Source of the DNA: Termitomyces sp. T153
Lineage: Eukaryota > Basidiomycota > Agaricomycetes > Agaricales > Lyophyllaceae
DNA length: 64,000 bases
Direction of reading: 5' to 3'
NCBI GenBank assembly: GCA_018296165.2
Contig: JACKQL020000062.1
Coordinates: forward strand, 248,001 to 312,000
Part shown: positions 468 to 48,772 of the stretch, in pieces
Numbering within the stretch: position 1 is the stretch's first letter
How the letters are laid out: every line of letters starts with the position of its first letter
Program-made: the position numbers and the translations under genes
Notes under the pieces: model-generated
What the model was told of the DNA's origin: nothing
Database searches by the model: none
Seen by the model: only the letters and a program-made list of their open reading frames with translations

Positions 468-1466
468 TGTCAGGTTCCGCTGATGACGGGGGCTCAGTAC
501 ACTGGCGAGTCCTTACTAGGCGGACGCAATGTCCTGCGCTTATAACCAGGCATCTGGAGTTGGAGCGGAGGTGGGGAAAGCTTGCAAGGGGATCCCTAGG
601 AGGAGCGGCCCGAGCAAGTCCTGAGTGGTCCGGAGGAGTCTAAGACCAAAGGTACTGGTCATGGACCCAGGGTGGGTGTCAGGGTTAGTTAGTGGGCGCA
701 CAAATAGATTGCAGGGTAGGCAGAGGCTTCTCAGTTGATGGAGGTGGGGTTGGAGCTGGACAGGGGATCACCGGGGCTTGATGGGTTCCAGGGTCGAGCG
801 GGTAGTGAGGTTTGGAGTTGTCGTTAAGAATGTTCAGGTCGTGGCGCATGCGCGGAGTTCGTACTGATGTAGGGAGCAAGGGAACTTTAGAGGAACAAAG
901 GAAATATGTACAGTCAAGATGAGATGGAGGCGAGACAAGACTGAGAAAAGATAGATTCAAAACCTAAAAACAGAAATAGAGACGAGACGAGAGACAAAAC
1001 ATAGGAAACCGGTAAATGTAATATCAAGACTAAAGTTTGAGGAGTTATTCTATGACTTATATACCGACTACTGGGTACCTCCGAGGGCGGCGGATATGAT
1101 GGCAGGGGTCGACGGAGCTGTGTGGAGTCAACGGGTGTCAGGTACAATCCAAGGTCGGGCCACGGCGGTATTCTGATGGGATCAGTTGGGGGCACAGCCA
1201 CTCCGGGGACGTCGTGACACTCCGGGACGGGTTGGGTAAACTAGGGTAGGGGGTTGGGGACGTATGACGTGGCCAGGAACAGTGGGGGAAGGTTTCAGGG
1301 GGTGTGTTGATGGCTACGGAGAGGGAGTTGCCGTCGGGGTTTGCCAGAGAAGCGTCAGAGTTATCCAGTGTGGGCGCGAAAGTGTGGGCGGGGTTCAGGG
1401 GAGTTAGATGGGAAATTGGGAGGGGTTGGGAGCAGTGTCTAGGGAGCTAGGGAGCGGGTTGTGACA
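468..1466 (-). repeat. A1 3' LTR (A-type)
   Basis: About 1.0 kb LTR matching 16514-17498 throughout. On the minus strand it starts TGTCACAACCCGCTCCC and ends GAACCTGACA. It carries the GTATATAAG TATA element and the AGTCTTGATATTA start region. At its 5' (right) border it abuts a purine-rich tract (reverse complement of 1467-1483, GAAGGGGGGGTGA) that fits the polypurine tract priming plus-strand synthesis. Confidence 0.88.
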
Positions 1467-1679
1467 TCACCCCCCCTTCAGCGTCGAGACCCTTGAGACG
1501 TGGGGAGCGAGTTGGGGATCAGTAGGGCGTGGGAATCAAAGTTGATCAATATTGATCAAACTGCAGCAAGCAGCGGCAGCGTGGGGAAGGAAGTCGAGGT
1601 GTGGCCGCCGTTTGTCAGGGGCCCCTTCTTAAGTTATTAAAAAGGGTGGACGCACCCGGAAGTCTGCCAGCTTGTTGCA
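1467..1679 (+). promoter_or_regulatory. Leader/probable promoter of the antisense accessory gene, A1 copy
   Basis: The 213 bp between the 3' LTR and the antisense ATG resemble the corresponding segments of B1, B2, D, F and G although they encode nothing on pol's strand. Shared blocks are the C-rich PPT complement, a GTCGAGACCCTTGAGACG-like block, an AATATTGATCA core (here a perfect 18-bp palindrome TTGATCAATATTGATCAA at 1542-1559), and an ATTAAAAAG TATA-like box about 45 bp before the ATG. Promoter function is inferred from conservation and position. Confidence 0.5.
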
Positions 1680-2188
1680 ATGTCTTCTTCAGCTTATTCT
1701 CCCACAGCATCTAGGTCACCGTCCCCGCCTTCCCAGCCGTCGTCCTCCGAAGATTCAGAGGGTCACCGAGATTGCTGTTGGGTCGAGGCAATGTACCGTA
1801 GTCGTGAGTGCAGTCCATCCCATATACCCCAGAACACTGATTGTTCCTTTGCAGAGTTGTCCGCGGCCGTAGCTGGTCCCTCAGGGCCACCATCTGGCAC
1901 GGATGCAACGCAGCCACCGGTGGGCGTGGTCACTTCTATGCGCTCCAAGTCTGGCATTTGCTCGGGAGTGGTCCAGCTTGTCCCAGAGGGTTCGAGGGTA
2001 GTACAGGTGGAGGTGACGCCGGAGCAGTTTGCCGAGGCGGTGGGTCGGGCGAGGGGTCCCCCCACCCTTGAGTGGTGTCAGGCGGCGGCCCCGGTGAGTG
2101 GCCACTTAGCTTCATGTTTCTCGGACCAACATGCCCCTGCAGTGTGCATCTTGTACCCGACAAGGGGAGCAATGTGAGTTTGAGAAAC

Positions 2189-3345
2189 TGTCACAACCCG
2201 TTCCCCAAAACCCCGCACATCGCCCATCAACCCCCTGAACCCCAAAAAACCCCCAACGCTCCGCCGAACCTCCGCCCATGCCCCGCGCCTACTTCGGCTA
2301 ACTCCGACGCCTCCCCAGCTAACTCCGACGGCCCCCTGGCCAACTTCGGTGCCTGCCCTGCAGCCACTGACACTTACCCTGGGCTTCCCAAACCCCGAGA
2401 ACCACCCCCACTGTTCCCGATCTTCGCCACCCATCATCAACTCAACACCCTGGTTCCTCCGACCTATTCTGGAGTATCACAACAACCTCGGGGCAACCCG
2501 CATTCTCCAATGATCCCATCAACATATCAGCGCGGCACAATCTTTGATCACAACTGACACCCGCCCACTCCGTCAAGCCCCGCCAAGCCCCGCCGCCACA
2601 GCCGACGTACCCCGAAGTCCTCTGGTAGTCAGTATATAAGTCATTGAGTAGCTCCTCGTACTCTAGTCTTGATATTGCTTAACGTTACCTATGGTCTGAT
2701 TGTTTTCTTTTCGTGTTTTGTGTTTCGTGTTTTGTGTCTCATTCTCCTTCCTCTCAGTCTCCCGGTCTTATCTCAGTCTCCCTGTCTTATCTCAGTCCCC
2801 CGGTCTTGTCTTGTCTCCATTTCGTTATCATTCTCGTTATTGTTTCATATCTCCACTCGAATCTACTCTTGTTCCATATCGTCTCGTCCAACGCTGTCTC
2901 GGTGACTCCGTCCGACCGTTGTGCCCAAGTCTTCATCAACCCTAACGACCTCACAAACTCCGCGATTACGATTACGAACCCCGACACTCCTTTACCAGGT
3001 CCGAACCTCACTCTTCGCTCGGTCCCAGACTCCATCAGCTCCAAATGATCTCCCATCAAACCCCGGCTCCGTTCCCATTGATCACACAGCCACCTACTCC
3101 CTTGCTTCCGCGAATCTCCCATACGGCCTTCTGCCTGAACCCCGCCAAGACCGTCTCATTTCCTCACAATCCGACTTCTCCGGACCTTCCCGGATCTGTC
3201 TGGATCACATCCCCCCAACTACCCGCACAAGCCACCAGGACCCGGAACGCCTTCAAGTATTTGGTTACCAGTGCAAGGGGATCACGCCCGCCTAGTAAGG
3301 ACTCGCCCAGTGCAGCTGAGCCCCCGAGGTCAGCGGAACCTGACA
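2189..3345 (+). repeat. B1 5' LTR (B-type)
   Basis: 1157 bp, from TGTCACAACCCGTTCCCC to GAACCTGACA. The U3 part contains about 21-bp repeats around GTTAGCCGGGGAGGCGTCGGA (here in complement, CTAACTCCGACGCC). TATATAA lies at 2633-2639. A run of CTCAGTCTCCCGGTCTTAT-like repeats occurs near 2750-2810. It is most similar to the other B LTRs in the window and only partly to A-type LTRs, chiefly at the ends and the TATA/start region. Confidence 0.88.
2633..2676 (+). promoter_or_regulatory. B1 LTR core promoter and predicted transcript start
   Basis: TATATAA at 2633 is followed 32 bp later by AGTCTTGATATT (2665-2676). The reverse complement of this 12-mer lies directly behind the LTR at 3347-3358. 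Position relative to TATA and the complementarity together suggest the RNA begins at or very near 2664-2666. Confidence 0.6.
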
Positions 3346-3358
3346 TAATATCAAGACT
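3346..3358 (+). other. B1 primer-binding site, self-priming type
   Basis: TAATATCAAGACT immediately follows the LTR end. It has no tRNA 3'-end complement (no TGG start) but matches the complement of the predicted 5' end of the element's own RNA over 12 nt, as in the Tf1 self-priming mechanism. Confidence 0.65.
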
Positions 3359-5816
3359 CTACCTTACCCCGTCCGTGATGCCCGCATTATCTCCGCACAC
3401 ACAATCAAATAACTCCAATGTCTATGGTCTACCCGTGCCGGGGAACCCTTATGATTTGTACGGCCCTGCCCAATTTGCCAAGGCACATTGAGTCGCGGAT
3501 CCGACACCAAACGTCCCCTCCGCTCCAGTTACTTTCATACAACGGCTCCCCCCATGGACACCCTCCCCAACTCACACCCAACTCCCAACCCCTCGCGCAA
3601 ACCATCAAATCATCTTCCACCCCACTCTTACACTCTCCGCCAACTCTGCTCTCTCGCACAAAGTTGGCCCCGACATCACCCAAAGAATAACATCCTAAAG
3701 CCTGGCGACCATCTGATCAAACGAGCAACAAGGTCTCCGGCACCACGCCAGCCCTCCGACCAACAATAACACCAACTCGCCACAGAACAGTCACCCACTG
3801 CGCGAGGATCGCCAGCTACAAAGAGACCACTGAGAACGCGCTTCCCTGAAGCCCGCCTGTGGATCCACCGGCCCACCAGCAACCCCGCAGACTGATGAAC
3901 GCGACTAATCACCAACAACGTCACCGAACCCTATTATCGACCCCCTCCAAGGAACTAAACCCTCCGACAACTAGCCCCGAAACCACCGAAATCAAGCTCA
4001 ACCCCACAACCCCAACCATCGAACAAGAACCTCAGACCTAGGCTATGCTCCAACCCCATGACCTGCTTCCGGACCTCGATCGATCGGCTGTCACCTCCGC
4101 CCAACAAATGAAGGGGCCCCGACTCCCCCGACCCGACCCCGACAACCCTGGAACAAGACCAAAACATCCCCGAGCCTCTAGACGTTAATAAGGAGAACCA
4201 CGGCACCCCACTCCCAACCAGGGACAACTCCGGACCACGCCGCTATTTCGCCACCCCTCCCCACACAATCCGGAGCCCCGACAATGAGGACCCTGGATGC
4301 CAAAACCCCATGCCACCCCCAGCTTAAACTCCACCACCAGACTATGCTACCTCCCACGAAGGAATCCCCAGCATAGGAGCCACCCCGAACTAACTAGGAA
4401 AAAGGACCCTATACGAAGTAGTTCCCTAAGTACTCTAAATTTGCTGACATGTTCATATAAGGGAGGGAGAAGCCCCACCATCATCCAGAAAACAACGATG
4501 GGCCGTTTAAGCGACCCGACGACCCAAAGGGCACGCGCTCCGATATCCTCAAAGGACCTCCCCTGGTTTGATGACCCAAACAACCCTGCGCCAGCCCAAA
4601 ACTGTCCCACCCAGACCCCTCCAAACCCTTGAACACAGCTCCGGACCCTGGTGACACGACTCCAGGGCCTCCGCTCCGACCACAACAATTGACCAAGAGA
4701 ACTCATGGCACCAGCTTGACAATGATGCCCTGGTAGCCCCAACTCCGCGACAGAAATCACCACCCACTCCAAATCCCGCCCCTACACCGGAATATGTCTG
4801 CCCAAACAGGGACCACATCACCGGAGCCTCCAGAAAAGCGGGCAGTGCCTCTCCCCACTGCCACCCCCACACTTGCAACAATCTCCGGGCCGCTCCAGAA
4901 CACAAATGAAGAGTAGCCTCGACCCTGCCGCATCTCCCGGGGAGCCCCACTCCAGTGCCTCCCCGCGGCCGACCTCCCCGCTGCCCCAACAACCATGAAC
5001 AACCAACAAATCCCCACCAAGTAACCCTTGAGTCGACTCCGGGACCACCCACTTCTTCCCGATGAAGGAACCACCGACCCCCAAACCTCCGAACTCGAGA
5101 AAGTATTAGAAATACGTAAGACCCCCTTTGTCCGCCTCGGGCTTACCTTTGGTCAGGAGAGCAATATCACGTAGATGATCTGGAACCCCAAATTTCGGCC
5201 CCGGACCTGAAGGAACTGGTTGGGACTGATCACCCCGCATCCTACCCCCTCGGTCATCAACACTCCAGAGCACACCAAAGCGCCACCCGAAGCATGCCCG
5301 CCCACAGATGCAACACTCCGGAACACAACCTCGACCCGGACCAACTATACCGCGAGGACGAACCTCGCCCCACCGAACCCCGCCAATGAAAAAAGGCCCC
5401 GCCGCCCTCGCCACCAGTGCCGGCATAAGGGCCAGACCATGGGGAGACCCCCATTACCCCCCGCCAACCGCACTGCCAAGACAACTAAAGCCCTGAACCT
5501 GTTGGGCACCATGAAAGATTCGAAGGCCCACCCTCCACTACCAATACGGCGCACGTCCCCTACACCCCCAGTCGGAATTTCCGAGAATCGAACTCAATGA
5601 CACCGCCCGAAATGCTGGGAACCCCCACCGGAGAACTCCCACCACCCCCGCCAGACCTCGGGAGCCCTCCTGCGATGCCCTGCCCCATCCCGACAAACCC
5701 TGGGACTAGCCAGCGCAGACGGCACTAGCGGGCGTAACCCCCGCCTCTGGACTCACTAGGGATTCAACTCCCTCTCACACCCCTGCGTGTTTTGCTTACT
5801 TCGCCCTCATACAAAA
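3359..5816 (+). pseudogene. B1 internal region: decayed gag-pol relic, no functional ORF
   Basis: A short ORF from ATG 3378 (MPALSPHTQSNNSNVYG) stops after 37 codons, and the same stop occurs in B2. Further shared stops in all frames show the region was already non-coding when the family spread. Recognisable anchors to A-type pol are the protease-RT linker near 4415-4465 (GAAGTAGTTCCC ... GCTGACATGTTC), an integrase TYFWPG-like stretch near 5140-5175, and the conserved post-pol segment (GGGCGTAACCCCCGCCTCT, about 5733-5751). The rest is proline-codon-rich sequence with no recognised domain. Confidence 0.6.
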
Positions 5817-5941
5817 CTAAAATCCCACTTCACATGCCCAGGGACCAAGAAAGGACATGTTTGCGTACAAAAAATTATATATACAATAGGCGGGGGAGGC
5901 AGCAAGTCCGAGAGCGACAAGAAACGAGGCCCACACCCATC

Positions 5942-7072
5942 TCACTCCCTCCCCGGACCCCCCGGCAACCCAACCCCCAGGTCGACCTCCATCTGGGCCC
6001 GCACCACTGCTAAGATCTCCGCCAACCCCGGCAATGCCTCCCCCGCGTCGGCTGCCACCTCCCACCATGACCCCGGGGCCACCGCATTGCGCCGCCAATG
6101 CCCTGCCAACAACCTCTCCAATCGCGCCATCCCCTGCTGCAACTCCGGAGGCTGGACTGCGGACTCCTGCATCAACCCGTCCTGAATCGACGCGAACGCT
6201 GCGGAGGCACCGTCCAAGAGGACCCAATGCTCCCGCACCCAGCCTAAACCCAGAAAATGAACCGTCAATAACGAACAGAGGAACGGGAGACAACTCATGA
6301 AGGATCCCCGCGCGACCCAAGGCGGCCTCATTGGCCAACCAATCCTCCCTCCGCCTCGCTGCCTCCAGCTCCACCCACAACACATCCCCCTCCGGAACTC
6401 GTCCCCGCCCCTCCGCTTCCCCCGCAGGCTGCCCCTCCACCTGCGCCAGACGCTCCCACAAACCCTGCACCTCTAGCGCTCGCTCCGTCGCCACGCACAC
6501 TGAAGTATTCCTCTCCCGCTCCATCACTTCCTTCTCCGTCCGTGCCGCGTCACGATCCTCCCTTGCCCGTTGGAGCTCACCCTCCCATACTGCCAACGAC
6601 GTCGTTAAGGCCTCCACCTGCTTGCAAAGGAAGACCTCCGTGATCAAAGGAATCAGCGCGGGGGGACTTGACGACCGTTCTGAGGGGATGCCCGGGACAG
6701 GAGAAAAGAGGGAGGACTCTGGGGGCCCCGCTGACAACTCGCGCCCATGCGGCCTCTTGCTGGGTCCCGCCCCTGAGGGCGGGGAAGCCCGACGCTTCCC
6801 CCGAACCATCGCCGAGGATGCCCCCTTCCCCTTTGGCAACGCGGGGCAAAACTTGGTCTGTTGCGGAACCCCCAGAAAATCCACTACCACTACCATGGAC
6901 GACTCTAAGAGAGCCCCGTCAATCATCCCGAAAAGAAAGGTCGACAACACTCACAATTCCGGTCCCTGACACTACCCCGGCGCCGACGCTCGAACTCCTC
7001 ACCCCCACTGTCGTACACCACCACCTCGTCCAAATCGATGGGAGAGACTACTGGAACGCTGGGGGAAGACAT
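5942..7072 (-). pseudogene. Antisense accessory gene of B1 (coiled-coil form, lacks Cys cluster)
   Basis: Minus-strand exons 7072-6955, 6904-6317 and 6243-5942, separated by 50- and 73-bp GT/AG introns, total 1008 nt (335 codons plus stop), exactly the length of the B2 gene. The order is an acidic start (DEVVVYDSGGEEFE), a basic patch (GKRRASPP, GPSKRPHGRE), a long charged coiled coil (LQRAREDRDAARTEKEVMER), and the C-terminal domain shared with the A form (EHWVLLDGAS, LLAGHWRR, PGSWWE). One lesion is visible: the exon 1/2 junction makes TAG where B2 has CAA, consistent with a C-to-T change at a CpG. The six-cysteine exon of A-type genes is absent. Confidence 0.7.
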
Positions 7073-7283
7073 GACAAAATTTGGGAAACCCCGGGGCACG
7101 CCCAAAGCTTTTAATTGATCGAGGAGGACCCTGACGAAACGGCGGCCACGCTTCGACTTCGTCTCCCACGCCGCTATCACTCGCTGCGGATTGATCAATA
7201 TTGCTCGGCTTCAACTCCCATGCCCCGCCGATCCCCGCCCTGCCCCCGCGTCTCGAAGGGTCTCAATGCTGAAAGGGGCGTGA

Positions 7284-8414
7284 TGTCACGACCCGTTCCC
7301 CGAAACCCCGCACATCGTCCATCAACCCCCCGAACCCCCAAAGGGACCCCCAACGCTCCGCTGAACTTCCGCCCATGCCCTGCGCCTACTTTGGCTAACT
7401 CCGACGCCTCCCCGGCTAACTCCGACGGCCCCCTGGCCAACTTCGGTGCCTGCCCCACAGCCACTGACACTTACCCTGGGCCTCCCGAGCCCCAAGAACC
7501 ACCCCCGCTGTTTTACTCTTTGCCACCCATCATCAACTCAACACCCTGGTTCCTCTGACCTATTTCGGAGTATCACAACAACCTCGGGGCAACCCGCATT
7601 CTCCAATGATCCCATCAACGTATCAGCGCGGCACAATCCTCGATCACAACCGACACCCACCCCCTCTGTCGAGCTCCGCCAAGCCCCGCCGCCACAGCTG
7701 ACGTACCCCGAAGTCCTCCGGTAGTCAGTATATAAGTCCTCGAGTAGCTCTTCATACTCTAGTCTTGATATTGCTTAACGTTACCTATGGTCTGATTGTT
7801 TCCTTTTCGTGTTTCGTGTTTCGTGTCTCATTCTCCTTATCTCAGTCTCCCAGTCTTATCTCAGTCTCCTGGTCTTGTCTTGTCTCCATTTTGTTATCAT
7901 TCTCGTTATCGTTTTGTACCTCCACTCGAATCTACTCTTGTTCCATATTGTCTTGTCCGACACTGTCTCGGTGACTCCGTCTGACCGTTGTGCCCAAGTC
8001 TTCATTAACCCTAACAACCTCACAAACTCCGCGATTATGATTACGAACCCTGACACTCCTTTACCAGATCCAAACCTCACTCTTTGCTCGGTCCCGGACT
8101 CCATCAGCTCCAAATGATCTCCCATCAAACCCCGGCTCCGTTCCCATTGATCACACAGCCACCTACTCCCTTGCTTCCGCGAATCTCCCATACGGCCTTC
8201 TGCCTGAACCCCGCCAAGACCGTCTCATTTCCTTACAATCCGACCCCTCCGGATCTTCCCGGATCTGTCTGGATCACATCCCCCCAACTACCCGCACAAG
8301 CCACCAGGACCCGGAACGCCTTCGAGTGTTCGGTTACCAGTGCAAGGGGATCACGCCCACCTAGTAAGGACTCGCCCAGTGCAGCTGAGCCCCCGGGGTC
8401 AGCGGAACCTGACA
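7284..8414 (+). repeat. B1 3' LTR (B-type)
   Basis: 1131 bp, TGTCACGACCCGTTCCCC to GAACCTGACA, preceded by the purine-rich GAAAGGGGCGTGA (7271-7283). It differs from the 5' LTR at scattered sites, some of them C/T or G/A, and by the number of internal short repeats, so B1 is not a very recent insertion. The first five bases after it (GAAAC) repeat the bases before the 5' LTR. Confidence 0.88.
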
Positions 8415-9834
8415 GAAACCTGCATCGGGGGTACGGCGGGACACGTCAGTGTGCCTTCCGTGCCGCAAACGGCACAAGAAGTGCTCCGTCACCCTGAGTT
8501 GGTGGGCTGTCTGCGTTGCGGCAGAGCAAGGGTGGGATCAAGGTTGGGTCGCAGCGCAGCTGGAGGAAGGGCGGAAGGGCAGGGTGTCGGGGAGGGGCTC
8601 TGGGGCTGGGGAAGGGGAACGGGTTAGCGCGCCTGTCATGAAGGTGGGCCCCCCGCGGGGTGGACAGAGGGAGGGAGCCCCTTCCACGCAGGAGAAAGGG
8701 AAACGGAGAGCGTCCCCTTCACCCGAGGCGGGTCCCAGTAAGCGGGCGCAGGGCGAGCAGGTAATGGGGGGCCCCCCTAGTTCCGTGGTGTACTCCCCTA
8801 CATCCGGAGCCCCCGTTGAGCAGTCCGCGGATAGGTCGTGGTTGGTTGTGGAGGCCTATCTGCGGTGTTGGGTAGAGGGCTTGGAACAGTTGTTGGTCGC
8901 ACGTGAGGAGGAGATTCAGGGGTACGGGAGGAGAGGGACGGGGCTCAACGGGAGTTGGACGGGGTTCGGAGGGAATGGGACCTGGCACGGAAAGACAAGG
9001 ACGTCGCCGTTGGGACTGCCACAGAGCGATTATCTCATCTGCAGGAGTTGGAGGTGTGGACGGTGCATTTGCAGGCCTGGGCGGAGGCGGCGGAGGTGGC
9101 GACGCAGCAGGCAGGAGGCTCAGGGGTGCGGGAGACCCAGCAGGGTTCAAGCACTGGGGAAGTCCAGGCGGCGGCGGAGAGGGTGCGGCGGTGGGAGGAA
9201 TGGCTTGCCAACAAGGTGGCCTTGGGCCAGTGAGGAGTGCTCCATGAGTGGTTTCCCCGCTTTTGTCTCCTAAGCGCTAATTCAGGTTCCACAGACTGGG
9301 CCAGGGAGCATCGCATCCTTCTCGACGGAGCATCGGCAGCGCTGGGGTCCATCCATGATGAGTTGGCAAGGATGCCCGGAGACCTTCCGCTAGAGTTGGG
9401 TCAAGGGGTTACGCAGATGGGGCGTCTGTTGGCAGGGCATTGGCGGAGGGTGACAGCAGATCCCGGAGCATGGTGGGAGATGGTGACGGACGTGGGAGAA
9501 CTGCTTCCTGGGCAACCCGAGGTTCTGGCGGCGGTAGTGGCACAGTTGGAGGTGTTTATGGTGGGAAGGGTAGCGGGGTTAGGGTTGGAGGAGGAGAGAG
9601 AGTGAGGGGAATTTGGACCCCGTCGTTGACTTGTTCTCTGCCCCTTCTTGTTCGAGTATATATATGTACACTGCTTGTTCCTATACAGTCTCTGGTCCTT
9701 CTGCTGAGAGTGGGAAGTTTCAGATAGAGTGAGGAGAGGAGTAAGTGGAAACATGTAGGAGAGTACTGGTGGGAGTTGAATCCCTGGTGAACCCAGAGGC
9801 GGGGGTTATGCCCACTATTGCCATCTGTGTTGGG

Positions 9835-12800
9835 TCAGTCCCGGGGGTTCCGGGGCTTGGCGGGATTCCGTCGGTGGAAGTTCTGGAGTTTGTCGGGGGC
9901 TCTGTCGAGGTTCTTTCGGGGTTCACACGTGTCGTCCTCAGGTCCGTAGCCTTTCCAGTGGACCAAGTACTGGAGTCAGCCGCGAACTACCCAGGAGTCG
10001 AGGATCTCGTCAACCTTGTAGTGATATTCGTCCTCGACTTTGACAGGGGGCAGTCGGCTGGGGCGTTGGCCGGGGAAGGGGTCTGGAGTGTGCCTTTCAA
10101 GGAGTCGAACGTGGAACACAGGGTGGAGGCCCTTCAGGCCTGGAGGCAGGTCAAGCTTGTAAGCGTGGGTGGAGACCTTCCGGAGGATCTTGAATGGGCC
10201 GAGGCGTTTGTGGTCAAGTTTGATGGAAGGCCTCCGGGTCTTAAGATTTTGTCGGTTGAGCCAGACCAAGGTGCCGGGGGGCCAGTCAGGGGTCAGCTTG
10301 CAATGGGCATTGGCGTGCTTGGAGTAGGCTTGGTTGGCGGTGTCAATCTTGTTCCGGAGGAATTGGTGGAGGGATCAGAGGTCCTCGGCGACTTCGTGGG
10401 CAACGTGGGAGGGGATGTCTTTGAGGGACAGCATGAGTCGAGGATTGTAGCCCTTGTTGGCATAAAAGGGGGAAACTCCGGTGGCGGAGTGAGGCGTGTT
10501 GTTGTAGGTGAATTCGGTGAGGGGAAGCTCCACGTGCCAGTCGTTCTGTAAATAGTTAACGTAGAGGCAAAGATACTGTTCTAACATCTGGTTTACGCAC
10601 TCGGTTTGTCCGTCGGTTTCTGGGTGGTAGGCGGTAGAGAGGCTGGTTTTGATCTCAAGTGCCTTGCACAGCGATTGCCAAAAATGAGATATGAATAGGG
10701 GTCCACAGTCGGAGACGATGTTGTTGGGAAGTCTGTGTTTGGAGAATACATGTTCTAGAAATAGTTTGGCGAAATCTGGGGCGGTGTCAGTGGTGTGGCA
10801 GGGAATGAAGAGGGCTTGTTTGGTAAGGCGGCAGACGACAATGAGGATTGCGTCGAAACCTTTGGAGTCAGAGAGTTTGATGATATGATCCATTGATATT
10901 GAAGACCAGGGGCGGCGACTGATGGGGAGGGGTTTCAGTAATCCGTGGGGGCGATGGTGGGGTACTTTGGCCCGTAGGCAGGGTTTGCAGGCTCTTACGT
11001 ATTGCGTGACGTCCTTCTTCATTCCTGGCCAAAAATAAGTCTGGGAGATGAGTTGAAGGGTCTTACGAATTTCTGGGTGCCCCCAGAGTTTGTGATCGTG
11101 GTGCTGCCGGAGTATGTCGAGGCGAATGGACTTGTGGTCCGGGGCGTAGATTCGTCCACTCCGGAGCAGCAGGCGGTGGTCTGGGGATAGCAAAAAGGGG
11201 TTGTCTATGCTCGACTTGTTGGGGTTGTTGCGGGGGTCATGCTGATTGAAGAAGGGGTCCGGGGGTGAATTCCTGATTTGCTGGAGGATTCCTTCTTCGT
11301 TTAAAATCAGCACAGCATGTAGATGTTCGGGTGGAATTACCACTCGATGGTTGAATGCATTTCATTTGGTTTTGAACGATTTCTTTGGATACACGTTGGG
11401 TCTCCAATTGAGGGTGTCGGGCTTTGCACCGAGTCGCCCAGGGCGGTAGTGAATGGTAAAATCGTACTCCGAAAGGGTTTTGGACCATCAAGCCTGGCGG
11501 CAGCTGAGCTGTTTCGTGTTCGTGAAATATTGCAGGTTGTTGTGATCGGAGTAGACTTGGATGCGGTGCGGAAACCCTTCGAGGTAGGCCCGCCACTGAC
11601 GAAAGGCTTCGACAATCGTGAGGAGTTCCTTGTCATAAATGTTGTAGTTGAGTTCCGCTGGGATCATTGATCGGGTGTAGAAGGCGACGGGGCAGAGATC
11701 CTTGCCCCCCGAGTTCGACTGGGAGAGTATCCTGGCAATAGCGTAGTCAGAGGCGTCACATTCAAGCACGATCAGTAGGAAGGGGTCAAAATGGCGGAGG
11801 ACCAGAGCGGAGGTGAAGGCCTTCTTCAGGAGGAGGAATACGCTCTGGCACTTGCTGTCCCAATCCCAAGGGGTGTCCTTCCATGTGAGTCAGTTGAGGG
11901 GTTTGGTGATCCTGGAGTAGTTGTCAATGAAGCGGCGATAGAAGTTAGCAAACCCCAGGAATGACTGTACCTCCTTGACGTTCCGCGGGGAGAGCCAGTT
12001 GAGTATTGTGTTGACCTTGGTGGGGTCCATGCACACACCATCAGGGGTGACGATGACCCCGAGATATTCAACTTCCACTGTGTGGAATGAGCACTTTTCG
12101 GGTTTAGCATGAAGGTGATATTCTTGAAGTCGTTCCAGGACATGGCGGACGTGCTCCGAATGCTCCGCCGGCAAATTCGAGTAGATCAGGATATCGTCCA
12201 AATATATGATGACAAAGACGTCATTCATGTTGTGGAAGATGTCGTTCATGAAGTACTGGAAGGTGGCGGGGGAGTTAGTCATTTCGAAGGGCATTACGAG
12301 ATACTCAAAGAGGCCGTAGTGGGTGCGAAAGGCGGTCTTCCATTCATGTCCCAGGGCAATCCAGACGTTGTTGTAGCCGGAACAAAGGTTGATTTTTGTG
12401 TAAATCTTGGCGCTGCAAAGGCAATCAACAAGGTCTCCGATTAAGGGCAGGGAGTACCGGTTCTTTTTGGTGACTTTGTTGAGTCCCCGATAATCCACAC
12501 AGAGTCGGAGGGATCCGTCTTTTTTCTTGGCAAACAGAACCGGGGCGCCAGCCGCAGAGATCAAGGGACGTATGAAACCTTTGCCAAGCATGTCGTCAAG
12601 GTATTCCTTCAGGGCCCGGAGCTCGATTTTGGACATGTTGTAGATCTTGCCAAACGGGGGTGAGGTACCTTCTTCAAGGTTGATCTGGTGGTCGTAGGAG
12701 TGGTGCGGAGGGAGTTCCTTGGCACTTCCTTCGAAGAACACATCAGCAAACTTATGATACTCCAGAGGAACTACTTCGGATAGGATCTGTTCCTCCATCT

Positions 12801-13914
12801 TTTTTTCTGGCGTGGTAGTCCCTGCGCGGAGGTATTCCTCAGGTAGGGCTGGCATGACTTGCAACTGGAAGGCGGGGGTGCCTTCTCGTAGGAGGCACGC
12901 GAAGGGGACAGCGCCGATGATTTTAATGTCGAGGTTTCCAGAGTCGGTGGGGTTGGGTACCGTAGGTGTAGCAGTCGGGTCCAGGGTGGCATTGGGGTCA
13001 GGGATAGACTGGAAGCGGAGGTGGATGGCGGCCGCTAAGCTTGCTTTGGGGCCGGGGAATTGCATGGTGAGGTTCTTCCAGTTGATGTTGGGATTGACGT
13101 CTCGCAGCCACGGGAGTCCAAGCACGATCGGGGTCGACGGGGGTAGTTGGGTAACAAGGAGTCGGGCCTGGAACTGCAGGTCGTTATCGAGGGTGAGGGT
13201 GTTGTCGTGGTACTGCGTGATTCTTGTCATGGCGGGGCTCCCGTCGAAGAGTTGGAGCTCGAGGGGTTTGTCGAGGTCGTTGCGTCGGAGGTCGAGTTGG
13301 TTGCTGATGAAGACACCAGAGGTGCCGCTGTCTACGAGGGTGGGAAGTACCTTGAGCGAGCCGTCAAGTTGGACATAGATGACGAACAATCGTGCAGACC
13401 TAGAGCGAAGTTGCGGCAGGGTCTGGAGTTGGTTGACCATGGTCTCGGAGCTCTCGGAGGGGGGTGAGACATGGAAGGGTACCAGTCCAGAGTCGGTGGG
13501 GTTGTCCCGGTTGAGGCGTAGGGTGAGACTGGGCCAATCAACGCGGGGATTGGTGGAGCGGAGCCATGAGAACCCTAAGACAATGGGGGCGGAGGGGTGT
13601 AATTTTGTGACAAGTAGTCGGAGTTCTTGCTGTTGTCCGTCGGCAAAGGTCAGGGTTGTTTCTAGGCAATGAGTGATGTCTCCTGCTGGGGTAGAGTCTC
13701 CATCAAAGAGTTTGAGGGGGATCAGGGTGGGGAGGCGGCAGAGGGGTTGTGGGGCGAGCGCTGCCAGGGATTCATCAACAAAGTTATTGGTGGTGCCGCT
13801 GTTGACTAGTGTGGGGATGGGTTTGTTGGTGAAGGGGAGAGTGGTGCGGAGGAGGAGGTTTGTGGAGGAGTGGGAGGGGAGGTGTGCTGGGAGGTTGTTC
13901 AGGGCGAGCATCAT
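9835..13914 (-). pseudogene. A1 pol: tandem protease, RT, RNase H, integrase, chromodomain; nearly intact
   Basis: From ATG 13914 the first block is open for 674 codons (to 11890). It has two protease modules (first DSG changed to NSG, second DSG intact), then RT with [24 protein letters not shown] intact, and YLGVIVTPDGV. A stop precedes the RNase H part (DASDYAIARILSQ). The integrase (open 11343-10375) has its HHCC zinc region, the MDH catalytic Asp, DCGPLF with the second Asp intact, and HPETDGQTE. The chromodomain (about 10050-9890: [14 protein letters not shown] ... [14 protein letters not shown]) has one stop. Pol ends at TGA 9837-9835, about 230 bp from the convergent end of the antisense gene. 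Confidence 0.88.
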
Positions 13915-13985
13915 TGCGTGGAGGAGTGTGGCTGGGGCGGAGAAGACGTCGGGATATGGTCCACGGTCTAGTGCGTCTTCCAGAC

Positions 13986-16481
13986 CTAAACTGCCGATTT
14001 GTTTTCCATGAACTGGTAGTTACAGTCTTCTCTGTCAATCGTCCACACGGCGTGTCCCATCACCTGTTGTTTAGGGCAACTGCGAATAAAGTGTCCCTGC
14101 TCACCACATAGGATGCACACGCCCTCCTTCCGTTGTTTCTCCTGCATTTCCTCCGGCACGTCGATCCACGGGCTGTCCTGGATTCTGTTTGCGCATAAGG
14201 CTTCCTGATCGTCAGCGGGGTCCGGGATGTCGTCGCAATCGTCGGGGTTGGTATCCAGGGGTACTGGGGTGTCATGGAGGTCGGCGGCGTTGAGCTGGGC
14301 GGGTGGGCGCTGCCCCGGGGGTTGGTTAGTGTTGGGGACTCCTCGGCCCAGAGGGAAGCAGGGTGCGGGGTTAGCAGGGTTAGTGGGGATTGAGGATCGG
14401 ATGCCATTGGTTGCTCCGGCCTGCCAGTTGGTGTTACCGGAGGTGTTCCATGAGGTCCAGAGCGCTGTGTTTTCACTGCGGTCTTTCCAATAACGTTGGT
14501 CGACCTGGGTAACGAGCGCCTTGTACCCGTCATAGGTGCTTTGTTTGGGCGCGAGGCGAAGGACGTCCTTGATCCGTTGGGGCAGGGCACGACGGAGGGC
14601 AAACTGGAGGGTGTTGTAATTCCAGCCGGTCTTGTAGGCCTCTCGTTTGAATCGTACGATGAAGGTCGTGAAGCGTTCGTTGTCGCGCATTTGGAGGTTG
14701 AAGAGATTTTCCTCCACCTCCGCTACAGTGTCAAAGATGCCAAACTTACTTGAGAACTCTTGAGTGAAAGCGAGCCAATTGGAGAGTACGGGATTGTTTG
14801 GGTCGAACCAGAGTAGCGCAGTGTAGTGGTCAAAGGCGATGCCCTGTAAGTATGATGCGGCAAAGGCCACTCGTGAGCTCTCAAGCTGAAAAGTGATGGG
14901 CTTAGCTTGAAACATAGTTAAACACTGGGTCAGGAAGATTCACCACTTCCGAGGGTCGTGGCCAGTGAAGGGTTCAGGCTTCTGGATGTCAAGCTTTCCT
15001 TCCCAGGCCAGTGCGTCACGGGTATCGTCCTGTGAATTTTGAGTTTGAGGTGGGGGTCCGGTGTTGTAGTAGTAGTAGTAGTGATTTCTGTTTCCGTGCT
15101 GGGGGGGGAAAGCTGTCCATCGCCAGGCCCCATCCTCCCGGGGGTCCGCCATTGGGTGGTTCTCCACTGGGGTTTTGACCCACACTACCCGGGGCAGGTC
15201 CTGGGGCCCATCGAGGGGGAGGGGGTCCTCCAGGATTCGGGGGTCCAAAATAGTTGACATCAGTGGGGGGATTAGGCATCGGGGCGGGCAGGGGGTAAGA
15301 GGGGTTGATGGAAAGAGGAGGTTGGGGCGCCCCGGGGCCCATGGGCTGTCGCAGGGGAACTGGGGCATTGGGACGGGGCGGAGGGGCATTGCTATGAGGG
15401 GCGCGGAGATCGAAGTGGGGGGGTCGGTCTCGTTGGGGCCCATTGCGCGGGGGGTGTTCGTCGGCAGGGTTGCCCGGCTCGTTGATGTAGGAGAGGGTCC
15501 TGTTGTTGTCGTCGATGCGTAAGGGTGGTTGTTGGGAATGGAGTTTGGGGGTGGCAGGTTGGTCCCAGGTTTGGAAGGCGCTGGGCACCGAGCTGGCCTG
15601 GGGCCGGGCGGAGAGAGCCAGGGTATAGGCAGCGGGTTGGTCGAACAACCCCCCCATGGGGTTGAGGTTCCTCAAGATGCTGGAAGCCGCATTGAGTTCT
15701 TCCTGCTGACAGGGAATGGAAGATGGGGCTTTGTTTTGTGTCCCGACGGGTTCCTCGCGTTGCACGTGGAAGGAACGGGCGGGATCCAGAGAGTCTTCAA
15801 AGGGGCGGGGGTTTGGGCTAGTGTGAATTTCTTTGACCAAGGCGCGGAGCTCGTTCCATAAGTTGTCATTGATGCCCAGGGTGCCTTGCATATTCTCTGG
15901 GAGGTTCCCTTGTAGGTAGCGTTCGTGGAAGTTGAGGAGTCAATCTGCCCAGACCTCTGGAGTTGCGGAGGCATCGGGGTAGCCTAGGTTGGTGAGGAGG
16001 GTGCGGGTACACCTTGCGAATTCCACAGGGGACAGGTGGAGGAAGCGGAGGACTTTGTTGCGTTGCTGGGCGTAGGCTTTGATCCTTTGCTGCCTAGGAG
16101 AAGAAGGGGTTTGAGCGGCGAACGGTGGGCGGGGGGGAATAGTTATCCGTGGCCTCCGGAGGGACTGGGGCTGCAGCAGAGATTGGGTACGCATAGTAAT
16201 GGGCAGGGGGAGGTAGGCGGGGTTGGGGGTGCTGCGGAGTATCCTCTGGGGTGATATGGGGGTTGTTGCTATCAGCGTGGAATGCGGGAGGGCGGCGCCG
16301 GGGGTATTCCCTGGCTGATGGAGGCGTAGGAACACCTGGTTGGGGTCAGGGTCCAATGACGGGGCATATTGGTCCATGAAGGGACCCTGTAGAATGGGGC
16401 ATAGGAATTTTCTAGTATGGGCCGGCCATAGGTGTTGGTTGGGTAACCGACAGGGTTGTACGTGGGGTTAAACGCAGACAT
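13986..16481 (-). pseudogene. A1 gag, frameshifted
   Basis: Starts at ATG 16481 (MSAFNPTYNPVGYP), 20 nt after the primer site, and ends at TAG 13986. It aligns throughout with the intact 836-aa gag of A3: Tyr/Pro-rich N-terminus, Pro-rich middle, a capsid-like domain (FQLESSRVAFAASYLQGIAF), and a CCHC zinc knuckle CILCGEQGHFIRSC. Frameshifts break it near 16370, 15900 and 15000, and a TGA occurs at the LLDFH position. Not expected to give a full product. Confidence 0.85.
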
Positions 16482-16500
16482 CGAGAACGGGGTAAGGGGG

Positions 16501-16513
16501 AGTCTTGATATTA
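16501..16513 (-). other. A1 primer-binding site, self-priming type
   Basis: On the minus strand TAATATCAAGACT follows the LTR end directly. It is the exact reverse complement of AGTCTTGATATTA within the LTR (17077-17065), which starts 32 bp after the start of TATATAA (17109-17103). The 13-nt match equals that of A3. Confidence 0.68.
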
Positions 16514-17498
16514 TGTCAGGTTCTGCTGACGACGGGGGCTCAGTACACTGGCAAGTCCTTACTAGGCGGACACAATGTCCTGTGCTTATAACCAGGCGTC
16601 CAGAGTTGGAGCGGAGGTGGGGAAAGCTTGCGAGGGGATTCCTAGGAGGAGCGGCCCAAGCAAGTCCTGAGTGGTCTGGAGGAGTCTAAGACCAAAGGTA
16701 CTGGTCATTGACCCAGGGCGGGTGTCAGGGTTAGTTAGTAGGCGCACAAATAGATTGCGGGGTAGGCGGAGGCTTCTCAGTTGATGGAGGCGGGGTCGGA
16801 GCTGGACAGGGGATCACTGGGGCTTGATGGGTTCCAGGGTCGAGCGGGTAGCAAGGTTCGGAGTTGTCGTTAAGAATGTTCAGGTCGTGGCACGTGCGCG
16901 GAGTTTGTACTGACATAGGGAGCAAGGGAACTTTAGAGGAACAAAGGAAATATGTACAGTCAAGATGAGATGGAGGCGAGACAAGACTGAGAAAAGATAG
17001 ATTCGAAACCTAAAAACAGAAATAGAGACGAGACGAGAGACAAAACATAGGAAACTGGTAAATGTAATATCAAGACTAAAGTTCGAGGAGTTATTCTATG
17101 ACTTATATACCGACTACTGGGTACCTCCGAGAGCGGCGGATATGATGGCGGGGGTCGACGGAGCTGTGCGGAGTTGACGGGTGTTGGGTACAATCCAAGG
17201 TCGGGCTGCGGCGGTATTCTGATGGGATCAGTTGGGGGCGTGGCCGCTCTGGGGACGTCGTGACACTCCAGGATGGGTCGGGTAAACTAAGGTAGGGGGT
17301 CGGGGACATATGATGTGGCCAGGAATGGTGGGGGAAGGTTTCAGGGGGTGTGTTGATGGCTACGGAGAGGGAGTTGCCGTTGGGGTTTGCTGGAGAAGCG
17401 TCGGAGTTATCCAGTGTGGGCGGGGTTCAGGGGAGTTAGACGGGAAATTGGGAGGGGTTGGGAGCAGTGTCTAGGGAGCTAGGGAGCGGGTCGTGACA
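16514..17498 (-). repeat. A1 5' LTR (A-type)
   Basis: 985 bp in minus orientation, ending in TGACA at 17494-17498 (+ strand) and followed by the GTCAC duplication. It is closely similar to 468-1466; the two differ at scattered single bases and by a short indel in the GCGGGGTT block. TATATAA is at 17109-17103. Confidence 0.88.
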
Positions 17499-17863
17499 GT
17501 CACCCTCAATCACATTATGACAGCTGCCTCCCAACATACCCTGGAATTAATACAAAGGCCCATGGTATCCTAACCAGCAACGCTCGAGGTCCCCAACCAA
17601 CTCCACCACCACTCCGGACTCATCCGCTACCACTCTGATGTCCAACTCTGACAACCCCAGAAGCCTCGACATTAAAATTGTCTGCGCCGTTCCCTTTGCA
17701 CGCCTTTTACAAGACGGCACCCCCACCTTCCAGTTATAAATCATGCCAGCCCTACCCAAGGAGCACCTCCGCACAGGGACCACCGCGCCAGAGAGCAAGA
17801 TGGAGAAACAGATCCTATCCGAAGTAGTTTTCCCAGAGTATCATGAGTTTGCTAACATGTTCT

Positions 17864-21218: not shown

Positions 21219-23338
21219 CTCTCCCAGTCAGACTTGGGGGGCAAAGATCTCTGTCCTGTTGCCTTTTACATCTGATTGATGATCCCAGCGGAACTCAACT
21301 ACAACATCTACAACAAAGAACTCCTCGCGATCATTGAAGCCTTCCATCAGTGGCAGGCCTACCTCGAGGGGTCCCCACACCACATCCAAGTATACTCCAA
21401 CCACAACAACTTGCAATACTTCACAACCACAAAACAGCTCAGCTGCTGCCAAGCCCAATGGTCTGAAACCCTCTTGGAGTATGACTTCACCATCCACTAC
21501 CACTCCAGGCGACTCAGCGCAAAGCCCAACACCCTCACTCAAAGATCCGACGTGTACCCAAAGAGGTCATTCGAAGCCAAACGGAATGTATTCAACCATT
21601 GAGTGGTAATCCCCCCCAAACATCTACATGCCATACTGATTTTAAATGAAGAAGGAATCCTCCAACAAATCAGAAATTCACCCCCGGACTCCTTCTTCAC
21701 CCAGCATGACCCCCACAACATCCCTGACAAGTTGAGTGCCGGGAACCCCTTTTTGCTGTCTCTGGACCACTGCCTCCTGCTCCAGAGTGGACAAATTTAT
21801 GCTCCGGACCACAAGTCCATCTGCCTCGACATACTCTGGCAGCACCACAATCATAAGCTCTGGGAGCACCCAGGAATTTGTAAGACCCTTCAACTCATCT
21901 CCCAGACTTACTTTTGGCCAGGAATGAAGAAGGATGTCACGCAATACATAAGGGCCTGCGAACCTTGCCTCCAGGCTAAGGTACCCCGTCACCACCTCCA
22001 CGGATTATTGAAACCCCTTTCCGTCAGCCGCCGCCCCTGGTCCTCCCTATTGATGGATCATATCATCAAACTCCCCGATTCCAAAGGTTTTAACACAATC
22101 CTCATTGTCATTTGCTGCCTCACCAAGCAAGCCCTCTTCATCCCTTGCCACACCACTGACAATGCTCTGGAGTTTGCCAAACTGTTTCTCAAACATGTAT
22201 TCTCCAAGCATGGACTTCCAGATGACATTGTCTCCAACCGTGGACCCCTGTTTGTATCCCACTTTTGGCAATTGCTATGCAGAGCACTCAAGATCAAAAC
22301 CAACCTCTCCACCGCCTATCACCCGGAGACCAATGGACAAACAAAACAAGTGAACCAGACGCTGGAGCAGTATCTCCGCCTATATGTTAACTATTTACAG
22401 AATGACTGGCGCGCAGAACTCCCCCTCACCAAATTCACCTACAACAACACACCCCACTCTGCCACCGGAGTCTCCCCCTTCTATGCCAACAAAGGCTACA
22501 ACCCCCAACTCACCCTGTCCCTGAAAGACATCCCCTCCCATGCTGCCCACAAAGTCGCCGAGGACCTCCGATCCCTTCACCAATTTCTCTGGGACAAGAT
22601 CAACACCGCCAATCAAGCCTACTCCAAACATGCCAATGCCAAATGTGACCCCACCCCTGACTGGCCTCCCGGCACCTTGATTTAGCTTGATCAACGCAAC
22701 CTCAAGACCCGGAGGCCCTCCATCAAATTAGACCACAAGTGCCTCAGTCCTTTCAAAGTCCTCCAGAAGGTCTCCACATACACCTATAAACTCGACCTAC
22801 CTCCGGGCTTGAAAGGCCTCCACCCCATGTTCCATGTTTGACTCCTCAAAAAACATGCCCCGGACCCCTTCCCCGGCCAGTGCCTCAGCCAACCACCCCC
22901 CATCAAGGTCGAGGATGAGTACCACTACGAGGTTGACCAGATCCTTGACTCCCACTTGGTCTGCGGACAACCCCAGTACTTAGTCTGCTGAAAGGGCTAC
23001 GGACCTGAGGACGACACATGGGAGCCCCAAAAAAACCTCGATGGAGCCCCCAACAAACTCTGGGACTTCCATTGACAACACTCCACCAAGCCCTGGGACC
23101 TCTGGGACTAGCAAGTGCAGATGGCATCAGTGGGCGTAACCCCCGCCTCTAGATTTATCAGGGATTCAACTCCTACAAGTACCCCCCCTATGTGTTTTCA
23201 CTTACTTGCCCCTCACTCATTCTGAAAACTTCTCATGCTCAGCAGAAGTGCAGGGAGTCCAATGTTAACAAGGCTACAAGTATAAAATATAGGAATAGGG
23301 GAGCGTGGGGCAATGAGACACCGGAACCCAGAAGGCCC

Positions 23339-41562: not shown

Positions 41563-42490
41563 ATGTCCTCCTCCAATCACTCAGCTCCATGGTTTTCCAA
41601 TGCAGATGAGGTGGTGGTGTATGACAGCAAGGGGGAGGAGTTTGAGTGCCAGTGTCAGGTCAGTGCCATGTACTGGGGTCATAAGTAGTGTCTACTTGTT
41701 TTTTTGGGGTAATTGACAGAGTTTTGCAGGGTGGGTTGCAATGGTGTTGGGCTCTTCTGGGGGCTTTACTTGAGAGAGGGGCTCGGGATGGACTAGAGTT
41801 CATCCCACAGAGTTGAGTTTGGCGGTGGGGGGTGGGGAGGGAGTTCCACAGGCACAGCAAGTTCTGCAGGCAGAGGTGATGGTGGAGGAGTTCACAATGG
41901 TGTTGGTGTAGGCTTGGGGCCCCCCAATGCTGGAGTGGTGTTTGAACCAGGCCCCAGTAGTTTTCAAACCCTTTTGGTTGCATTTACTAATTGTTTAGTT
42001 GTAGTGTACCCTTTGTGCTTGGCAGGGTGAGCTGTGCGAATTTGATGGGCCCTTCATGGGCTCACAACATGATACCTCTGTGTGCCTTCCATGCCACGTA
42101 AAGCATGAGAAGTGCTCAATTTTGTTGGAGTGGTGGGTGGCATGCATTGCTGCAGAGCAGGGGTGGGATGAGGGTTGGGTGCGGGGGCAACTGGGCAAGG
42201 CATGGAAGGCCAGGATGTTGGGGGAGGGGGGTGCGGGGCAACCTGCAGTGAAGGTGGGACCTCCATGGGGTGGGCAGAGGGAGGGGGTGCTGGCAGCAGT
42301 GGATAAGGGGAAGCAGAGGGCCTCCCCACTGTTAGAGGCGGGGCCCAGCAAGAGGCCACGGGGACACGAGTTGATGGCCATAGTGGGATTAGGGTAATCT
42401 TTCATTTGTGCTCCAGAGTGGTCTGGAGGTTGCTATGAATGGGAGCGGGGTAGGTCTTGGCACTGTGGGGTGATCAACTAAGTTTATAAT
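41563..42490 (+). pseudogene. Antisense accessory gene of F, truncated
   Basis: ATG 41563 (MSSSNHSAPWFS) leads into DEVVVYDSKGEEFE, which matches the first exon of the B-type antisense gene. The middle exon (about 41830-41960: VLQAEVMVEEF ... PPMLEWC) and the exon beginning about 42006 match the A-type gene. The cysteine cluster is complete (CTLCAWQGELC, then CLPCHVKHEKC, spacing C-x2-C-x6-C-x15-C-x2-C-x6-C). A basic SKRPRGHE patch follows, then a stop (42394-42396) and truncation by the G LTR at 42491. F thus joins features of both forms. Confidence 0.65.
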
Positions 42491-43425: not shown

Positions 43426-43755
43426 TTACCCCCCCTTCAGCATCGAGACCCTTGAGACGCGGGGCACAGTTCAGGGATTGGTGGGGTGTGGGAATTGAAG
43501 TTGAGCAATATTGATCAGACTGCAGTAGTGGTGGCAGCGTGGAGAACAAAGTCAAAGCATGGCCACCACTCATCAGGGAGTTCTTCCCAAGTCATTGAAA
43601 AGGGTCAGACATACTCTGGGGTTCCCAAACTTTCCCAATGTTGTCTTCCATGTATTTTCCAGCAGCATCCCCATCCTCATTGGCACATATCTCGACTTCT
43701 TCCTCAGAGGACTCTGAGGGTTGGCGAAACTGTAGGTGGGTGCAGGCAATGTACC

Positions 43756-44899: not shown

Positions 44900-45110
44900 T
44901 CACCCCCCCTTCAGCATCGAGACCCTTTGAGACACGGAGGCAGGACGGGGATCGGCGGGGCGTGGGAATCAAAGCCAAGCAATATTGATCAATCCGCAGC
45001 GAGTGATAGCGGCATAGGAGACGAAGTTGAAGCGCGGCCGCCGCTTCGTCAGGGTTCTCCTTAATCAATTAAAAGCTTTGGACGTACCCCCAGATTTCCC
45101 AAATTTTGTC
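44900..45110 (+). promoter_or_regulatory. Leader/probable promoter of B2 antisense gene
   Basis: Equivalent to 1467-1679 of A1. It has GCAATATTGATCAATCCGCAG (the half-conserved palindrome core, about 44980-45000) and CAATTAAAAG (about 45066-45075), a TATA-like box about 40 bp before ATG 45111. Promoter function is inferred. Confidence 0.45.
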
Positions 45111-48759: not shown

Positions 48760-48772
48760 AGTCTTGATATTA
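48760..48772 (-). other. B2 primer-binding site, self-priming type
   Basis: Minus strand TAATATCAAGACT directly after the 5' LTR end, complementary over 12 nt to the start region of the B2 LTR (about 49428-49439). Confidence 0.63.

Follow-up and report, generated by a model that had tools for sequence, protein, structure and literature searches.

In this study, we analysed a stretch of 64,000 nucleotides (nt) from the fungus Termitomyces sp. T153 (the window; positions 248001-312000 of contig C62, JACKQL020000062.1) within its genome of 72 Mb in 307 contigs, to which all sequence results below refer. The window is a nest of long terminal repeat (LTR) elements, and elements named A1, B1, B2, D, F and G carry a gene in antisense orientation. 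We propose that this is probably a true, spliced, protein-coding accessory gene of many chromodomain Ty3/gypsy elements and of their non-autonomous relative B, encoding a nuclear, dimeric regulator of the element. The DNA and its predicted translation demonstrate the structure and position of the gene, selection on its frame, a conserved leader, a cysteine module (not in B), a basic patch and a long helix with a heptad pattern.

In the whole young A-type copy L034 the gene consists of four exons and three short introns (exon 1, 124 nt; intron, 51; exon 2, 239; intron, 49; exon 3, 871; intron, 51; exon 4) and encodes a product of 514 amino acids. The donor sequence is GTGAGT in all three introns, with acceptors ending in CAG. 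In A1 the gene lies on the plus strand, opposite to gag-pol and adjoining the 3' LTR, and is broken by the insertion of B1. Its exons and the genes of the other elements are given here by their position in the window.

1680..1803, plus strand: A1 antisense exon 1, Ser/Pro-rich, donor GTGAGT
1855..2093, plus strand: A1 antisense exon 2, 239 nt, between GCAG and GTGAGT
2143..2188, plus strand: A1 antisense exon 3, first part with the first CxxCx6C, cut by the B1 insertion
8414..9243, plus strand: A1 antisense exon 3, second part with CLPCRKRHKKC, basic patch and coiled coil; the last donor has decayed to ATGAGT
9295..9605, plus strand: A1 antisense exon 4, C-terminal domain with EHxxLLDGAS, LLAGHxRR and PGxWWE; stop at 9603-9605
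5942..7072, minus strand: B1 antisense gene, three exons, one stop in its own copy, second donor AT
23336..26154, minus strand: D antisense gene, low end approximate, exon 1 split by a solo LTR
41563..42343, plus strand: G antisense gene, truncated, with a B-like exon 1 (118 nt) and the six-cysteine exon
43638..51484, plus strand: F antisense gene, exon 1 from 43638 and split near its end by B2, the rest at 49967-51484
45111..46241, plus strand: B2 antisense gene, no stop, second donor AT

With the genes of L034 and of the young B copy L061 as tblastn queries, the antisense gene was found in A1, B1, B2, D and F and, truncated, in G. These are the six copies named in an earlier, sequence-only reading of the window, whose start of the B2 gene (45111) agrees with our model and whose multi-exon design, with a leader by the 3' LTR, a basic patch, a coiled coil and a shared C-terminal domain, is borne out by the sequence. 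Other details had to be corrected. Exon 2, given there as 239 nt in A1, D and G, has this length in A1, D and F, but measures 227 nt in G. The coding sequence of B1 and B2, given as 1008 nt, is 1026 nt with the stop when the splice sites conserved among B copies are used. Restoration of the frame by splicing, claimed for each copy, holds for the family but not for single window copies, as the stop in B1 and the AT donors of B1 and B2 show. Intron 3 measures 53 nt in the D/F copies measured and the last intron of B 55 nt, so that their removal is needed to keep the frame.

The antisense gene is abundant far beyond chance. The C-terminal domain of A1 as query gave at least 150 significant places from 1207 first-look candidates (74-100% identical to the domain of A1), and that of B1 at least 150 from 1193 (86-100% identical to the domain of B1). 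Since A and B differ more than the members within either list, the lists can hardly overlap, and together they hold at least 300 scored places in one genome (150 A-like and 150 B-like). When the 150 scored A places were set against the best 150 reverse transcriptase (RT) places, 106 had, among the RTs listed, one on the opposite strand at 1.5-4.5 kb beyond the stop, at a rounded distance of about 2.4-2.5 kb in 100 of them, and none had one on the same strand; the remaining 44 were without an RT at the expected position among those listed. The C-terminus of pol lies opposite the gene in all 30 A loci tested (L009-L038), and within about 1.5 kb of it in 0 of 20 B loci. RVT_1, Integrase_H2C2 and rve domains were found in A elements, and the pol end of L034, the one A locus scanned, contains a chromodomain (Chromo, 63.1 bits; cut-off 25.1). 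By RT, integrase and C-terminal chromodomain the A elements are Ty3/gypsy chromoviruses. Their gene, antisense, after pol, before the 3' LTR and in many copies, has the position of the genes called aORF-3R, whereas the gene of B is not downstream of a pol. The location between pol and the 3' LTR that had been claimed for every element is therefore correct for A elements and incorrect for B1 and B2, where pol is absent.

Splice sites and cysteines were counted in 34 A loci and 12 D/F copies, excluding L009, L066 and L068 with their LTR insertions in the gene. All six GT/AG sites are canonical in 28 of the 34 A loci, the misses being changes of GT to AT, or gaps. Where A and D/F copies align cleanly, divergence is 0.20-0.37 in exons against 0.37-0.65 in introns, and exon 3 has a recurrent, frame-preserving gap of 9 nt (copies with broken ends or insertions, e.g., L072-L075, align worse, show other gaps and lie outside this comparison). 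Families with 37-65% divergence in their introns have retained splice sites, frame and cysteines. From this conservation we infer that the antisense gene is transcribed and spliced by the host. The introns would survive retrotransposition because the genomic RNA is sense, so that antisense introns should look reversed to the spliceosome. Heavy CpG decay was observed in L009-L079, where donors changed from C|GTGAGT to ATGAGT and CGA codons to TGA independently in many copies. Such decay is typical of methylated repeats. An early stop common to many D/F copies was considered as a lineage feature and rejected, since it reflects recurrent CGA to TGA decay.

Selection was assessed by the ratio of nonsynonymous to synonymous substitution rates (dN/dS). 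In exon 3 of L034, the antisense frame is the sole frame open throughout. Over the whole coding sequence, 15 A and D/F copies compared with L034 gave antisense ratios of 0.21-0.34, far from the value near 1 by which the sequence-only reading had proposed to judge its claim; for comparison, pol gave 0.09-0.23 in seven A copies and 0.14 in D and F. Among near-identical young copies the ratio is 0.76 over 36 pairs, as would follow from selection that operates while a lineage multiplies and ceases once a copy has inserted. For codon positions 1, 2 and 3 the differences between A and D/F are about 0.2, 0.24 and 0.44, position 3 varying about twice as much as the others. Exon by exon, ratios were tested against 100 context-preserving shuffles per pair (L040 was skipped for gaps). 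In exon 3, four D/F copies and two intermediate ones gave 0.22-0.28, lower than in any of the 100 shuffles for each pair; three closer A copies gave 0.26-0.39, a ratio reached by 0-3 of 100 shuffles. Exon 4 gave 0.11-0.26 in the four D/F pairs (0-3 of 100 shuffles as low) and 0.14 in L015 (0 of 100). B copies compared with L061 gave 0.06-0.26 in nine of ten pairs and 0.49 in one very close pair.

A second test compared changes private to one copy with shared changes, as non-CpG counts of nonsynonymous to synonymous changes with a neutral expectation of 2.4-2.5. Private changes stood at 70:45 and shared ones at 29:68 in A (p = 9e-6); the corresponding counts in B were 52:48 and 17:55 (p = 3e-4). 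Most A and B copies had been chosen by protein similarity of the last exon, and the result stands when this exon is omitted (B exons 1-2, p = 0.0006; A exons 1-3, p = 0.00006). Counts that included CpG sites (p = 0.017 for all B, 0.0009 for protein-picked B, 1.0 for DNA-picked B, 0.003 for A and 0.027 for D/F) are confounded by recurrent CpG changes and were replaced by the non-CpG counts. These comparisons show that the antisense frame is under purifying selection, within A and B as well as between A and D/F.

Element B keeps this gene in the absence of gag-pol. Both B elements of the window lie inside antisense genes of other elements, B1 in exon 3 of the A1 gene with the target duplication GAAAC.

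2189..8413, plus strand: element B1, non-autonomous LTR element, LTR pair 91% identical, no pol match, gag match at the 5' end only
43756..49907, minus strand: element B2, second non-autonomous B element, inserted in the F antisense gene, GTACC duplication

In B1 and B2 no pol was found, and gag is represented only by a weak match at its start. By its LTR pairs, its 5-nt target duplications and the lack of gag-pol, B is a non-autonomous LTR element similar to large retrotransposon derivatives (LARDs). Unlike the non-coding interior of a LARD, its interior carries the 1026-nt spliced antisense coding sequence, and 20 of 23 distinct B copies (22 protein-picked copies and B2) are without a stop. 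The B gene retains the coiled-coil and C-terminal parts without the cysteine module, and A and B proteins are 49% identical over 281 residues from the basic patch onward. Exon 1 of G is B-like and, as in B, 118 nt long (DEVVVYDSKGEEFE in G against DEVVVYDSGGEEFE in B). In the simplest reading, drawn from one truncated G copy, a G-like element would have given rise to B after losing gag-pol and, in frame, the cysteine module.

In A, D/F and G, exon 3 starts with the arrangement C-x2-C-x6-C-x15-C-x2-C-x6-C, which is absent in B. All seven cysteines of the exon 3 start are kept in 34 of 34 A loci, 33 of which were chosen by the other end of the gene, and each cysteine position is kept in 10-12 of the 12 D/F copies. 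Among loci found with the module of G, six cysteines are present in 11 of the 12 read; by eye, these comprise G and at least two further groups. More diverged loci with the same module (L098-L105) are 56-68% identical to that of G. In Pfam Zn_clus (PF00172), the first half of the module matches profile positions 13-35 and the second half positions 2-15, i.e., in swapped order. The alignment has 33 rows, of which 19 contain the module and 16 give a Zn_clus match at E up to 10. The two C-x2-C-x6-C halves give the six cysteines expected of a Zn2Cys6 domain, while the canonical order of the halves and a score above the Pfam cut-off are lacking. The canonical Zn2Cys6 domain has two like halves, and a swapped order is therefore conceivable. 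AlphaFold confidence is about 50 over the cysteine part, which by its spacing looks Zn2Cys6-like with swapped halves and may adopt a binuclear fold. Among solved structures, two RAP-domain chains that matched most of the 104-residue cysteine part (E 0.0012 and 0.0029) were taken as chance.

The cysteine module is followed by the basic patch KGKRRASP...GPSKR and by a long helix, which is predicted confidently in both structure models. Its heptad positions a and d are hydrophobic at a fraction of 0.73 in A (0 of 2000 shuffles) and 0.63 in B (2.3% of shuffles). The C-terminal domain has no relatives in Pfam, and a search of solved structures by sequence gave nothing under E 0.4. The Pfam scan of the antisense protein detected no other transcription-factor domain and no match to packaging proteins.

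Between the LTR and the ATG lies a leader of 214 nt in A and 210 nt in B, which joins the LTR in the alignment.

1467..1679, plus strand: A1 leader, putative antisense promoter between the 3' LTR and the ATG, with CAATATTG at 1547, from an alignment of nine leaders

A and B leaders are 72% identical over 210 nt, compared with 66% for the adjoining LTR and 44-53% for introns. The block CAATATTGATCA is invariant across the nine aligned leaders (A, B, D/F), and the corresponding block in G reads TAATATTAATCA. An A/T-rich, TATA-like box is located about 40 nt upstream of the ATG.

In our preferred reading, transcription of the antisense gene would start in the conserved leader next to the 3' LTR, the host would splice the transcript, and the protein would enter the nucleus via its KGKRRASP...GPSKR patch and dimerise through the coiled coil. 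The cysteine module would bind element DNA, most likely the leader or the LTR, and the bound protein would tune element transcription or shield copies from silencing. The B protein, without the module, would serve the full-length protein as a partner or modulator or compete with it as a decoy. Possibly, though we consider this unlikely, the protein does not regulate transcription but helps a later step, for instance nuclear import, the packaging of RNA or, together with the chromodomain integrase, the targeting of integration. A basic patch and a coiled coil would also suit nuclear import or particle functions, the chromodomain at the C-terminus of pol makes targeting part of the life of the element, and B, which must borrow proteins, nevertheless keeps the antisense gene. 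The conserved, DNA-binding-like cysteine module and the conserved leader, however, point to regulation at the DNA level, and the lack of a Pfam match to packaging proteins also argues against a later step.

An action of the antisense RNA itself, through double-stranded RNA or interference with sense transcription, has been proposed for antisense transcription in plant elements (PMC7264820). Here such an action, with the protein as an incidental product, is improbable, because selection tracks codons: position 3 varies most, introns diverge more than exons between A and D/F, the recurrent exon gap keeps the frame, and dN/dS is low throughout the 15 copies. A captured host gene, carried as a passenger of no use to the element, would account for the host-like splicing and for a cysteine module that resembles a fungal domain; it is quite improbable given that the gene is present in several diverged families, was under selection before insertion and is kept in the gag-pol-less B. 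That open frames and similarity are an artefact of high G+C or of sense-strand constraint, the latter a possibility that the sequence-only reading itself raised for the C-terminal similarity, is hardly credible: a low ratio in exon 3 is also seen in the sense frame -2, whose third positions coincide with those of the antisense frame (0.26-0.47; 0.26 in both frames for L015), but the five other frames hold stops in every exon 3 pair tested, frame -2 has 3-8 stop-bearing codons per pair against 0-5 in the antisense frame (which exceeds frame -2 in the decayed L076 only, 5 vs 3), and introns and exon joins fit the antisense gene only.

Several observations weigh against our preferred reading. All six splice sites are kept in only 2 of the 12 D/F copies; the chief fault, GT to AT at donors 1 and 3 (4 of 12 copies each), is expected from CpG decay. 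In exon 4, four of nine pairs were matched by shuffles more often (L011, L079, L029 and L076 by 6, 10, 15 and 54 of 100). The comparison of private and shared changes gave non-significant values for D/F alone (p = 0.09) and for 12 old B copies, picked by the DNA adjoining the gene, plus B2 (p = 0.52); four of these 12 are without a stop and only two without a stop or gap. The Zn_clus scores given in bits (16.9, 14.4, 13.1 and 11.9; best E 0.0019) are all below the Pfam cut-off of 21. The structure models are poor outside the long helix, with mean predicted local distance difference test (pLDDT) values of 57 and 55. Finally, the sense-strand polypurine tract lies within the leader, and part of the leader conservation may therefore serve reverse transcription.

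Antisense accessory genes are already known from Grande, Retand and Boty, and the gene described here is a variant of that kind. The Boty gene, brtn, was reportedly described by Zhao et al. in 2011. Such genes are established in plants and in Boty (PMC7264820, PMC11963269, PMC8365987, PMC4227169, PMC5408684). Boty-like elements of Botrytis cinerea and Sclerotinia sclerotiorum carry brtn (cited in PMC7264820, PMC8365987), and the pol of Boty includes a chromodomain (PMC4227169). Boty, as these sources present it, thus resembles A as a fungal LTR element with a chromodomain pol and an extra antisense gene; it differs in its ascomycete host, and brtn is compared here by its description alone. This precedent, the six-cysteine module and the absence of gag-pol in B had been omitted from the sequence-only reading. 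In plants, the aORF-3R genes include maize Grande gene23, rice RIRE2 and Retand; the Grande gene is preceded by a promoter of its own and encodes a nuclear product, Retand products contain the predicted DNA-binding domain TRP28, with Smc-like matches in some clusters, and TRP28 is present even in those Retand clusters for which Table 1 lists no GAG, AP or RH-INT (PMC7264820, PMC11963269). Unlike B, no cluster of that table is without all of gag-pol. Retand furthermore belongs to a non-chromovirus lineage, TRP28 (PF04195) gave no match in the fungal antisense proteins at E up to 10, and the passages on plant elements do not describe antisense introns.

HBZ is a spliced antisense product with a zipper-type coiled coil of the bZIP kind. 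HBZ and APH-2, of human T-cell leukaemia viruses, localise to the nucleus (PMC11963269), and the antisense promoter of HBZ lies in the 3' LTR (PMC7264820). Both are antisense nuclear regulators, as proposed for the fungal protein, and HBZ also shares splicing and a coiled coil with it. In contrast to the bZIP and LTR promoter of HBZ, the fungal gene has a cysteine module before the coiled coil and a leader inside the element. In Gal4, a cysteine cluster is followed by a basic stretch and a coiled coil. Fungal Zn2Cys6 proteins of the Gal4 type (PF00172) have the same two C-x2-C-x6-C halves and the same layout; the module described here differs by the opposite order of the halves, the 15-residue linker and a score below the Pfam cut-off. 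It is a doubtful extension of this comparison that the protein is a Gal4-like factor with a circularly permuted zinc cluster, encoded antisense and with introns, and that a gag-pol-less relative carries a module-less version as its only recognised gene, selected to interfere with or hitch onto the full-length factor. A search of the open-access literature found no report of such a gene for basidiomycetes, of the cysteine module, or of a relative keeping only the antisense gene; subscription papers lie outside this search, which makes it weak evidence of novelty.

The remaining features of the window concern the nest itself.

468..17505, minus strand: element A1 (Ty3/gypsy), gag-pol on the minus strand, defined by its LTR pair and pol domains

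The LTRs of A1 (468-1472 and 16514-17505) are 92.5% identical, and RT, integrase and weak protease domains lie between them. A B-type solo LTR at 24996-26119, with a GGGGG duplication, splits exon 1 of the D antisense gene. All three A/D/F-type antisense genes of the window are interrupted by a B-type insertion, either an element or a solo LTR, with a separate 5-nt duplication in each case; it lies in exon 3 in A1 and in exon 1 in D and F. A 231-aa frame with an Integrase_H2C2 domain is found at 55339-56034 on the plus strand, and a 978-aa host gene frame with RAI16-like and DUF5917 domains at 30112-33048, in a part of the window with lower G+C. Elsewhere in the genome, the antisense C-terminal domain lies about 2.5 kb from the contig start in several A contigs (C10, C112, C289) and about 3.6 kb in several B contigs (C39, C98, C256). 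These distances suggest that the assembly breaks inside A and B repeats. One Peroxidase_ext match, against none in 14 control genomes, suggests an agaricomycete, as judged by the range of this family.

That LTR elements can carry antisense accessory genes is known, but why they do so is unexplained. In the elements described here, the protein is what selection keeps, and the role of antisense genes in retroelements becomes directly testable. The strongest hint at function comes from B: an element without gag-pol that keeps its antisense gene under selection is hard to explain if the protein is freely shared, which suggests a benefit for the very copy or lineage that makes the protein. The swapped order of the zinc cluster, if its fold is borne out, would be unusual within a very large family of fungal DNA-binding proteins. 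Should the permuted, Gal4-like factor and its module-less version in B prove true, a regulator and a counter-regulator would form a pair within one mobile-element family, with selection acting copy by copy.

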